Assembly: GCF_000022485.1 (NCBI RefSeq)
Contig: NC_012623.1
Span: forward strand, 434,001-498,000
Direction of reading: 5' to 3'
From: Sulfolobus islandicus Y.N.15.51
GTDB taxonomy: Archaea > Thermoproteota > Thermoprotei_A > Sulfolobales > Sulfolobaceae
DNA: 64,000 bases
Shown here: positions 6,079 to 55,616 of the stretch, in pieces
Position numbering within the stretch: the first letter of the stretch is position 1
Layout: every line of letters begins with the position of its first letter
Notes under the pieces: model-generated
Told to the model about the DNA's origin: nothing
What the model saw: only the letters and a program-made list of their open reading frames with translations
The model's database searches: none
Translations under genes and position numbers: made by a program

Positions 6079-7566
6079 CTATCTATAATCTAGGATAACC
6101 CTTATAACAAGAGGAGCCCTTATAATTTCCTCTATTTTTATCTTTAAACCTTCATCACTTAAACTCCACTCTAACTTACCTTTCCCATCTAATCTGCTTA
6201 CATCTACTATTACAGCTTCTTCTATTAGCTTTAGATTTTTCATAAACGACCTTAACGTAATTTCCTTAGGCTTTCCGAAGAGAATAGCGTAAATATGCCT
6301 TTGTCGCGGATAATAGTCTTTCACAGTGTATCTCACATCTTGATAGCCTAAAGTAATTTTTCTCTCTGTAAAGAATCCCCCTTCATTAATTCCCGAAGGA
6401 CCTTCTCCGTAAACTCTCCACGGTTTTGATCCGAAAATCGCTTCGCCATTTACATTTAGCCAATCCCCAACATCAAGTAGAATTCTCTTAGCCTCTTCTG
6501 GTATCGTACCGTCAGCTTTAGGTCCTATATTCAAGAGAAAAACTCCATTTTTACTAACAACATCACCTAAATGGGATAATATAACACTAGGTAGCTTGTA
6601 TTCAGCATCTTTGATGTAACCCCAGGATTTGTAGTCTATAGAAGTGTCAGCTAACCATGTGGAGGGATATACGTTCTTTATTGTTCCCCTTTCAGCTAAA
6701 TCCGGTATGGCTGTACCTTCCCCAAATGCCCCTTGCTTGTAAATTATTACGGGTTCTATTCCCCATTTATATGACCTATTATAGTAATAGGACGCAAAGG
6801 CCTTCAAATATGGTTGGAAAGAGGGATTGGCAATCCACCAGTCGAAATAGACTAGCCATGGCCTATACTTTTCAACAGCCTCAACAATTCTAAGCAACCA
6901 ATCCATTAGAAACTCATCATTTGGCTGTACATTATCCAGTGAAGGTGGATCTCTAGGATTTAGGGAAGCAGACTGAGCTGGGCCATATAAATCAGGATAT
7001 CTGGGGTCCTTTACATCAGACTCTATTTTCATCCCTTGATCGAAAAACCACCAGTGCTCAGCCCTATGATACGAAATGCCAAATATTAGCCCTTGACCTT
7101 CAACAGCTTCCTTAAGTTCTCTAACAATGTCCCTTTTAGGTCCAATCTTGGTTGCACACCACCTAGTGTAATTTGATTCCCATAGTGCAAATCCATCGTG
7201 ATGTTCTGCAACTAGGACTACGAATTTAGCTCCACTTTTCTTAAAGACCTTAGCCCACTCATATGGATCCCAATTCTCTCCAGTGAACATCGGTATGAAA
7301 TCCTTATATCCGAAATCGGTTACTGGGCCGAATTTTTTTAGGTGATATTGGTGTTCTGGTCTATCTGGCATGTACATGTATCTAGGGTACCATTCATTAC
7401 CAAATGCTGGTACTGAGTATACTCCCCAATGGATAAAAATACCGAATTTAGAGGTGGTAAACCACGATGGGACTATATACTTTTTTAATGAACTCCAAGT
7501 AGGTTTGAAAGGACCATTAGATGGTACTGGAAGTGATTTCAAGATTTTGTAAGAATTTTGTGACAT
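6079..7566 (-). CDS. fucA: Alpha-L-fucosidase, GH29, uninterrupted frame
   Basis: A 495-residue retaining alpha-L-fucosidase. The nucleophile Asp242 (VYFDWW) and Glu58 (FGNEWY) stand at the positions reported for the S. solfataricus enzyme, and the length equals the published full-length protein. In strain P2, from memory, the gene is split and needs a programmed -1 frameshift at an A-AAA-AAT site. Here the same place (residues 76-79, L-K-K-F) reads CTA AAA AAA TTC, with seven A (T run at 7333-7339), and one frame runs through. No signal peptide, so intracellular. Upstream on the minus strand is a half ara-box-like ATGTTAA and a weak Shine-Dalgarno. Expected to free fucose from oligosaccharides. 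Confidence 0.95.
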   Translation of the reverse strand: MSQNSYKILKSLPVPSNGPFKPTWSSLKKYIVPSWFTTSKFGIFIHWGVYSVPAFGNEWYPRYMYMPDRPEHQYHLKKFGPVTDFGYKDFIPMFTGENWDPYEWAKVFKKSGAKFVVLVAEHHDGFALWESNYTRWCATKIGPKRDIVRELKEAVEGQGLIFGISYHRAEHWWFFDQGMKIESDVKDPRYPDLYGPAQSASLNPRDPPSLDNVQPNDEFLMDWLLRIVEAVEKYRPWLVYFDWWIANPSFQPYLKAFASYYYNRSYKWGIEPVIIYKQGAFGEGTAIPDLAERGTIKNVYPSTWLADTSIDYKSWGYIKDAEYKLPSVILSHLGDVVSKNGVFLLNIGPKADGTIPEEAKRILLDVGDWLNVNGEAIFGSKPWRVYGEGPSGINEGGFFTERKITLGYQDVRYTVKDYYPRQRHIYAILFGKPKEITLRSFMKNLKLIEEAVIVDVSRLDGKGKLEWSLSDEGLKIKIEEIIRAPLVIRVILDYR

Positions 7567-7669: not shown

Positions 7670-8407
7670 ATGCTTTCATTAACGTATAATTGGAAAGCTT
7701 TTAAACTTTTAAAAAAGTATGAACTTGTGAGCCATAAGTACATTAACGTGATGGTTTCGCATCATGGCTGTTGGTCAGAGCTCACGAGTGTAAATTATAT
7801 TGATACGTTAATTAACATTGAGTAATCTAGTTTTGAGATACTTAAGGCAAGTAGGATTGCTATGATTAGAGGGAGTAAAGAAAATATTAAAGGGCAGATT
7901 AAGAACATTATGACTAAAGATAGGAGTATTATAGACTTTGATATATCAGAGATTGTTAGTGATAATAATAAGTACTCAATCTATTTAATATCAATGTTGC
8001 AAGAGGCTGAGAATACGATGATAAGTAAACTGAGAGCTAAGGGTACTTCTATCATTGGGACTACCATACGAGATGGTAAGGAGATCTACGACGTTATAGT
8101 ACCAAGAGACGTTAAGACTTTAGTTGTAGACGCCATAATGAAGGATGACAGGGTAAAAATTATCAACTTCGTGGAGAAGGACGTTAATGAGGAATTAATA
8201 TTCAAAGTAATAAGTAGGAACTCGTTCGAAATGCTTCTAACTGAAAAGGAGAGAATGCTATTGAGAAAGGCAAGGGAGTTAGGTTATTTTAATGTGCCTA
8301 GAGATAGGAACTCTCAAGAACTAGCTAAACAATTAGGAGTTAGTAAGATGAATATCTCTTTCTCTTTAAGGAAGATACTTAAAAAAATCTCTAACTTGAT
8401 AGATTAA
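7670..8407 (+). pseudogene. HTH_10 transcriptional regulator with in-frame stop
   Basis: The frame starting at ATG 7670 encodes MLSLTYNWKAFKLLKKYE and then the family's N-terminal segment (YINVMVSHHGCWSEL, comparable to YNVVLSHEDW of the intact paralogue at 25643). It hits TAA at 7823-7825 and continues in the same frame to 8407, including the C-terminal bacterio-opsin-activator-type HTH (LLRKARELGYFNVPRD ... ELAKQLGVSKMNISFSLRKIL). The 181-residue frame beginning at 7862 is thus only the downstream part. Probably a pseudogene; an internal restart making a protein without its sensor N-terminus is the alternative. It sits beside fucA and may have controlled it (inference). Confidence 0.75.
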
Positions 8408-21065: not shown

Positions 21066-21212
21066 TTCTTTTCGCCATGTCGTAATTGGATAAAGAAACT
21101 TATAAGCTTATTTATCATATCAATTATATAGATTAAATAGAGTATTGAATCTCCATATTTTTCTCATAAAGAAATCTTGATTACGTAAATATTATGGACT
21201 AACTGCATAAAA

Positions 21213-21870
21213 TTACTCTATAATCTTCTTAAACCTTATAGATGCTAAGAAGTACATTACTACGTTAAATATTAAAATGGCTAAAACATCACATACTACA
21301 CCATCTGTATTACCAGTTATCATTAGTCTCCTACAAATATCTATAATATAAGTTAATGGATTACCTAAGGCATTAGTTCTATGTGTAAAGTCCATTACTA
21401 GCTAAGAATAAGGGCATAGTTATTACTTGCCCTATTCCCATAAATATCTCCATGGTTTTCATGAAAGAGGCTAGATCGTTTCTGATCTCGTATAATCCTA
21501 ACCTATATAGCTAGAATGTATTCTATTTTTCCTTCCTCTCCGAGGATGGTATACCGTAAATTTTACTGTAAATTAGTAAATTGTCGTATGCAGTGATATC
21601 GGTCCAAACACTTATCTCTTGAGGGACGTATCCTATTATTTTTCTAGCTTTGTTTGCATCATCAGTTACATTATAACCACCAATATAAGCCGAACCTCCA
21701 CTTGGTGGTATTTGAGTTGATAATATCCTGATTAAGGTTGTTTTCCTGCGCCGTTAGGACGTAGAAGGGCAAACGCAGTGCCCCACTCAACTTCTAAGTC
21801 AATTCCATTAAGTGCCTTTACTTTGCCATTATATGTCTTAACAAGCCTTTTACGTAAACAGCAAAGCTAT
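21213..21870 (-). pseudogene. ABC exporter remnants (ATPase N-terminus and ABC-2 permease C-terminus)
   Basis: On the minus strand, 21870-21520 reads as a DrrA-type ATPase: YNGKVKALNGIDLEVEWG, then Walker A RPNGAGK-TTLIRILS broken by loss of one A (A4 run at 21744-21741), then GYVPQEISVWTD (Q-loop) and a stop. No signature or Walker B follows. From about 21480 to 21213 is the end of an ABC-2 permease (ITMPLFLASN, then NPLTYIIDICRRLM). The stretch between is missing. A small upstream frame break also precedes the Walker A. Clearly dead; 21871-22229 shows no gene. Confidence 0.7.
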
Positions 21871-49195: not shown

Positions 49196-49471
49196 ATGAT
49201 AGATAATCCTACTGATATAATTATAATCTTAGTGGTTATTGCTGTACTCTTCTTTGGATCATCTAAAATGCCAGAGCTTTTCAGAGCTTTAGGAAGATCA
49301 ATGGGGGAGTTCAAGAAGGGACAACTAGAAGCAGAAATGGAAATGCAACAAATGATGTCTAGCAATGTAGTTGAAAAGGGGGAGAGGAGTGAAAGTGTAG
49401 AAGAACTTGAGAAGAAAATAGTAGAATTACAAAAGCAATTAGAAGCACTAAAGCAAAGTAAGAAGGCCTGA
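49196..49471 (+). CDS. tatA: Twin-arginine translocation protein TatA
   Basis: A 91-residue TatA. One N-terminal membrane span (IIIILVVIAVLFFGSSKMPEL, with the FGxxxxPEL hinge), then an amphipathic helix (FRALGRSMGEFKKGQ) and a long charged coiled coil (to KQSKKA). It has a strong ribosome-binding site GGGAGGGT upstream. tatC follows after ten bases, so the two form an operon. Confidence 0.93.
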   Translation: MIDNPTDIIIILVVIAVLFFGSSKMPELFRALGRSMGEFKKGQLEAEMEMQQMMSSNVVEKGERSESVEELEKKIVELQKQLEALKQSKKA

Positions 49472-49481
49472 GGTATTCCAC

Positions 49482-50351
49482 GTGGAAGAAAAAGCAAAGG
49501 AGAGAGGTAAAGAAGAGAAGAGTTTTTTCGAAGAAAAGCCATTATTAGATCATTTAAGAGAATTAGCAATAAGACTAAGGAGAATTATAGCAGCATTAGC
49601 TATTTCGTTCTTCTTTTACTTCATGACAGGTTATGAATGGATTAATATAGATCCATTACAAATACCATTTCTTGGGATAAGTATCTCAAAAATTCCAATT
49701 CCTTATCCGTCATTTTACGATAGTATTGCAGTACAAGTAACCAAATTCTTTATTTACCATGAACTGCCAGCCAATACTAAGATAATAATAATAAACTTAT
49801 TTGATCCAATATATGCGTCGCTTTATGTTTAACTTTACCTCGCACTATTGACCTCGCTTCCCCTCATAATTAGAGAAACTTGGGCTTTTTTAGCTCCGGG
49901 ACTATATAAACATGAAAAGAAAATCTTTAAGCTAACCATGATTCCAGCATTTCTACTTTTCTTCTCTGGTTCTCTATTTGCGTTTTTGATACTAATCCCC
50001 TTAATGTTTGACATGATATCATTTTATACCGAGTCTTTAGGTCCTGCCGTAGAACCTACCATAAGTTTAAGTTCGTTCATATCTACAACTTTCCTATTAA
50101 TGGGGTCGTTAGGACTAGCATTTGAGATGCCACTGATAATGATTGGTTTAGCTCACCTAAGAATAGTTAAGGCTAGTACTTGGAGGAATTATTGGAGATG
50201 GGGAGTTCTGGTATCCTTTATAATTGCATGGATAATATCACCAGGTACAACTGGTGGCGTTATGAAAACAATAATAGGATTATCACTATCGAGCCTATAC
50301 TTTTTAGGAATGGGAATCTCTTTCTTAGTAGAGAGGAAAAGGGAATCTTAA
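49482..50351 (+). pseudogene. tatC: TatC with a single in-frame TAA stop
   Basis: From GTG 49482 the frame encodes the cytoplasmic start (PLLDHLRELAIRLRRI, the conserved TatC E/HL-ELR-R motif) and goes through the first span and periplasmic loop to DPIYASLYV, where TAA (49830-49832) occurs. The same frame continues with LYLALLTSLPLIIRETWAFLAPGLY, which contains the conserved FxAPGL motif of TatC, and runs to 50351. Nothing is missing: a one-base change (for example TCA to TAA) explains it. Total length with the stop read would be 289 residues, normal for the family. Unless read through, translocase function from this locus is lost. Confidence 0.88.
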
Positions 50352-54932: not shown

Positions 54933-55616
54933 TTATTGGGAGTTTATAAATAACTGGCTCAAAATTTTCCTCAACCCATTTCTTATATGCCTATCTAAAG
55001 TTACCTTAGTTACTCCAAACATCTCAGCCAATTCTTCTAATCTGACTCTTTTAGGGTATTCGAAGAACCCTAGTCTAATTGCAGTTGTGAGTCTCTCCCT
55101 TTCTGTAGGAGTTAAAGAGTTAATTATAACTAGATCATTTTTATATCATTTACCTTAGTTTTTTCCATATCAATATTTTCTACCTTAACGTCTATTCTCT
55201 TCAGACCGTGCGATATATTTGAGAGAATTTCCTCTTCTCCAAAGAAATACGCATACCATTCCTCTATTCCATTACTTATGGATAAGTTTGTTATGACTGC
55301 GTTATTTTCTATCATGACTTTTGTAACCGAGTTGTCAAAATTTTTAAAATAATACAATAAGGCCACTTTGCTAGATCTTGGTCTATCTATGTTAGCTACT
55401 TTTATATTATTGCCATCTCTTCATATTAATTGTTGATATGAAATCTGAAAGTTCGTTTTTATCATTGGAGTAAATCTCAGCTATTTCGAAAATTGAATTC
55501 TTAGTTATCAGTGGAAAGAGATACATTACCTTGGCCTTTACTTTGAAATCAGACGTCTTATAAGTCCAACACGAACCGTGCTTAATATCAAGCTTGACTT
55601 TATAAACATGCATCAA
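54933..55616 (-). pseudogene. HTH_10 regulator, decayed
   Basis: Three frames in order make one regulator. The N-terminus (55616-55407) is HVYKVKLDIKHGSCWTYKTSDF, the middle (55366-55133) is YFKNFDNSVTKVMIENNAV and onward, and the end (55129-54933) is LTPTERERLTTAIRLGFFEYP then LAEMFGVTKVTLDRHIRNGLRKI, a clear HTH_10 domain. At least two frameshifts. Fourth member of this family in the window and the second that is broken. Confidence 0.75.

Follow-up and report, generated by a model that had tools for sequence, protein, structure and literature searches.

Our analysis indicates that tatC2, the second tatC gene of the source genome, is most probably a pseudogene: it would have encoded a dispensable second TatC and lost its function recently. 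In the window, that is, the whole stretch of 64,000 nucleotides from Sulfolobus islandicus Y.N.15.51 that was analysed, tatC2 carries one in-frame stop; an intact tatC1 is present in the same genome, the orthologues have sense codons at the position of the stop, and relatives bear independent lesions in the gene. From this we infer that the stop is biological and that tatC2 has lost its function. The apparent paradox, in which a needed part of the export machinery seemed to be broken, disappears given that an intact copy exists.

The interrupted frame and its locus

The features of the locus are the following:
49196-49471 (+): tatA2, intact, 91 aa, first gene of the tatA2-tatC2 pair (Pfam TatA_B_E, 49.2 bits)
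49469-49474 (+): ribosome-binding motif TGAGGT of tatC2, located 7 nt before its GTG start and overlapping the TGA stop of tatA2
49482-50351 (+): tatC2, second tatC paralogue with one in-frame stop (translation, Pfam, genome-wide search, orthologue codons)
49830-49832 (+): codon 117, TAA, where the TM2 region begins; Ser in the orthologues, TCA in the two nearest (translation, alignment)
49848-50351 (+): possible internal TTG start giving a 167-aa C-terminal half, without a Shine-Dalgarno-like motif upstream
49908-49910 (+): codon 143, AAA (Lys); Glu in 32 of the 35 other TatCs (alignment)
50265-50267 (+): codon 262, AAA (Lys), aligning with Q215 of E. coli TatC; Glu in all 33 comparable TatCs

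The initial annotation had described a TatC frame at 49482-50351 (+), broken by one stop and otherwise continuous, and both the coordinates and the description are right. Translation gives a TatC-like frame of 289 residues plus the terminal stop, with a single internal stop; when that stop is read as a residue, the Pfam TatC profile (PF00902; cut-off 25.1) is matched with 145.6 bits. A genome-wide search found one TAA at the tatC2 locus (G000:C1), the same stop as in the window. The C-terminal part alone reaches 119.1 bits against PF00902 (cut-off 25.1) and aligns along solved TatC structures; the N-terminal part alone falls below the E-value limit. The NCBIfam equivalog cut-offs are missed by tatC2 (TIGR00945, 123.9 bits of the 132.7 required), and since the intact orthologue of G001, another member of the genus, is also under the TIGR00945 cut-off (124.8 bits of 132.7), the shortfall reflects divergence of the paralogue and not damage. 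A profile match is shared with archaeal TatC (PF00902; TIGR00945; TIGR01912), from which tatC2 differs by the stop at codon 117, so that the frame over all six transmembrane helices is interrupted in the TM2 region. The TAA is a true interruption of a true gene and not a chance occurrence.

The gene is also linked to a tatA, tatA2 (49196-49471), which lies directly upstream, exceeds the NCBIfam tatAE cut-off with 62.1 bits and is unbroken in each of the six genomes in which the locus is present. A search for RR-motif signal peptides among the ORFs of the window gave no candidate.

The intact tatC1 and the history of the pair

Two TatC loci were found on searching the source genome: tatC2, with its one TAA, and the stop-free tatC1 at G000:C1:1057493-1058197. 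The latter is a frame of 296 codons, situated 574 kb from tatC2 and beside a tatA, and it scores slightly better than tatC2 (160 versus 146 bits). A second tatC in the genome was one of four alternatives put forward when the stop was noticed, and it is borne out by this search. The accompanying premise, that losing TatC should be costly, fails for this copy, because an intact second tatC is present in the same genome; relatives have also broken or lost tatC2. The intact tatC1 is probably functional and would compensate for the loss of tatC2.

The gene order at the tatC1 locus is tatA, a small TatA-like ORF of 105 aa, tatC. The small ORF (L032 4142-4459 in G000) has no Pfam match, and may act as a TatB-like partner. 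At this locus, the source genome seems to have retained a complete Tat system. Two TatC, three TatA and only five putative Tat substrates have been reported in Sulfolobus (Saccharolobus) solfataricus (PMC5023256). The complement of the source genome is similar, with two tatC loci, a tatA at each of them and one additional small TatA-like ORF by copy 1, but here one of the two tatC genes is interrupted (compare PMC5023256). Tat goes unmentioned in the main text of a paper on the essential genome of S. islandicus.

The comparison covered 60 related genomes, among which seven members of the genus are labelled G000 (the source genome) to G006. Members of the Sulfolobaceae outside the genus have one tatC, and those of the genus mostly have two. 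In a tree of 36 TatCs, copy 2 forms a single clade (support 100/100), with copy 1 of the genus (93/92) as its sister group; a larger clade (97/98) holds the two. Copy 1 and copy 2 are thus paralogues whose duplication goes back to the base of the genus or earlier.

Within the genus, tatC2 is intact in three members (G001, G002 and G005), broken in three (G000, G004 and G006) and absent from one (G003). Its neighbours in G001, G002, G004 and G006 are ilvD, a methyltransferase gene and a DUF998 gene, and in G005 the methyltransferase gene follows tatC2. At the corresponding place in G003, between the ilvD and methyltransferase genes, there are an ATP-cone-like ORF and a thiC-like ORF, both named from reading the sequence. 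Codon 117 is TCA, TCC or TCG in the orthologues of the genus: TCA or TCC in the intact genes of G001, G002 and G005, and TCA in the two nearest relatives, G001 and G006. In the 35 other TatCs, the same column holds Ser in 30 and Ala in 5. Given TCA in G001 and G006, one C-to-A change accounts for the TAA, and the earlier guess that TCA was the ancestral codon fits these nearest relatives.

The stop at codon 117 occurs in the source genome only, among the relatives of the genus that were compared; the lesions of the others fall at other codons. The G004 gene has lost 1 nt near codon 70. In G006, one T has been lost from a T-run near codon 15, and a 264-bp insertion, the remnant of an insertion sequence, lies near codon 208 (L041 4442-4707). 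Similar copies of the insert are dispersed in G000, G002, G005 and G006. Many times in G000, its two end portions are found as a pair separated by about 1.9 kb, the arrangement to be expected if the insert is a longer mobile element with its interior deleted. Because the insert derives from a dispersed mobile element, the G006 insertion is biological and not a read error. No match was obtained in an Rfam search of the copy-2 loci of G006 and G004, nor in an exact DNA pattern search of viral contigs. A scan of genome contigs with the C-terminal half of tatC2 yielded no confirmed relative, in a collection from which close records seem to be missing.

We propose that the duplication would have produced two loci: as copy 1, a tatC accompanied by a tatA and by a small gene resembling tatA, and as copy 2, the tatA2-tatC2 pair beside ilvD. 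In the source lineage, a single C-to-A change would then have turned a Ser codon into TAA. Translation would end after 116 residues, which comprise the cytoplasmic N-tail, TM1 and the first periplasmic loop, leaving no working translocase core, and Tat export would be carried by the intact copy 1. In four of the seven genome-sampled species of the genus, the spare tatC is broken or lost, with differing lesions, and in the others it is intact and constrained. Taken together, our results suggest that the tatC2 system is useful under some conditions only.

Constraint on the interrupted copy

Codon models in which the G000 branch was given its own omega yielded 0.148 for tatC2 on that branch against a background of 0.049 (2dlnL 7.6; omega = 0.05 rejected), and omega = 1 was also rejected (2dlnL 19.8). 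Being below 1 and above the background, the omega of the G000 branch indicates that the constraint on tatC2 ended only recently; if the background constraint held until the death of the gene, about one tenth of the branch would have been neutral. The value on the intact G001 branch is also raised (0.257), so an elevated value does not single out the broken copies. For tatA2, omega on the G000 branch is 0.47 against a background of 0.067 (2dlnL 6.3) and is not distinguishable from 1, which shows that tatA2 has been under relaxed constraint on this branch.

Two replacements affect conserved residues of TatC2. The Lys at codon 143 is a mild change, since the alignment places a Lys at this position in E. 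coli TatC too. The change at codon 262 concerns a conserved residue of the polar cluster, Q215 in E. coli and Glu in the Sulfolobaceae, where tatC2 has Lys. In E. coli TatC, Q215 is the polar-cluster residue that binds TatA/TatB (PMC5201420); Q215R inactivates the protein, and Q215K has been recovered in an impaired double mutant (PMC10197872). Alignment by eye places an Asp in TatA2 at the partner position of codon 262, with which Lys 262 could pair, and the replacement may be partly tolerated. Because of this Asp, Lys 262 is supporting rather than decisive evidence.

What speaks for a pseudogene is, in sum, an intact copy in the genome, a lesion that is absent from the intact orthologues and relaxed constraint on the lineage that bears it. 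Counting against it, most of the G000 branch was under purifying selection and tatC2 has no second disabling lesion, a combination that would also be explained if the stop were a read error or the product were functional.

Alternative readings of the stop, and other interrupted genes in the window

A sequencing or assembly error, with a sense codon and an intact tatC2 in the living strain, is unlikely, and it is the alternative to which we give most weight. The lesion in tatC2 consists of one substitution only, the remaining frame is conserved and omega is well below 1. Moreover, the interrupted gene at 7670-8407 is also broken by a C-to-A change (TAC to TAA); as both nonsense changes are of this type, some room is left for error. 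There is a precedent as well, in that an interrupted aIF1 gene of S. solfataricus proved to be full-length on resequencing, according to a review of recoding (PMC8211752). The private changes of G000 in the window nevertheless show no clear error-like excess, with a nonsynonymous to synonymous ratio of 0.305 against 0.262 for G006; for private C>A changes, the nonsynonymous to synonymous counts are 29/42 in G000 and 15/32 in G006. Also against an error, tatA2 and conserved residues of TatC2 are likewise relaxed on the G000 branch, and two relatives have a broken tatC2 locus while a third lacks it.

It is highly improbable that TatC2 is still made, either by readthrough of UAA or as two assembling halves, and that the second Tat system works at a low, regulated level. 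Readthrough of the TAA had been offered as one route, and we find nothing in support of a programmed readthrough that would yield a full-length TatC2: none of the 46 tRNAs found in the genome, with introns allowed, has a UUA anticodon, and since the stop is absent from every relative there is no conserved readthrough signal. Sec and Pyl insertion use UGA and UAG. In archaea, stop readthrough has been demonstrated for Sec and Pyl insertion only (PMC8211752). Recoding is known in Saccharolobus solfataricus, where fucA1 is expressed through a -1 frameshift, and some interrupted genes of this species have been reported to be functional (PMC8211752). Like tatC2, fucA1 is a conserved ORF of this genus that is interrupted; however, its frameshift takes place at a slippery sequence (PMC8211752), whereas tatC2 bears a nonsense codon in frame, for which no recoding signal was identified, and its lesion is not conserved. 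Readthrough is given only a very slight probability. The other route, in which the halves are translated separately, with TTG 49848 as the start of the C-terminal one, and then come together into a split TatC, strikes us as similarly far-fetched. In its favour, the break falls close to where periplasmic loop 1 passes into TM2, a site that should tolerate a split, and the TTG is 15 nt past the stop. No Shine-Dalgarno-like motif was seen before this TTG or the next ATGs, as opposed to the TGAGGT of the native GTG start, and for want of such a motif the internal start proposed in the initial annotation was judged non-functional. Furthermore, no relative has a conserved split at codon 117, their lesions being elsewhere, and the intact tatC1 makes a split TatC unnecessary. 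Recent inactivation of a dispensable gene is thus the reading that we retain for tatC2.

Two further interrupted genes and a degraded region were observed, and interrupted genes are therefore not rare in the window, which is in keeping with decay of tatC2. The HTH_10 regulator at 7670-8407 (+) is interrupted at 7823-7825 by a TAA in frame, the codon being TAC in G006 and G001, and its annotatable ORF begins only at 7862. A homologous-looking HTH_10-like regulator at about 54936-55616 (-) shows two frameshifts in comparison with G006 and G001, one caused by a base gained near 55419 and the other by a base lost near 55142. The region at about 21200-21851 (-) holds remnants, degraded by stops and frame changes, of ORFs that are full-length in G006 and G001 (253 and 333 aa). 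The ORF at 6079-7566 (-), of 495 aa and by eye similar to GH29 alpha-L-fucosidases, is continuous; the fucA1 gene of S. solfataricus is split and needs a -1 frameshift (PMC8211752), whereas this fucosidase-like ORF is unbroken.
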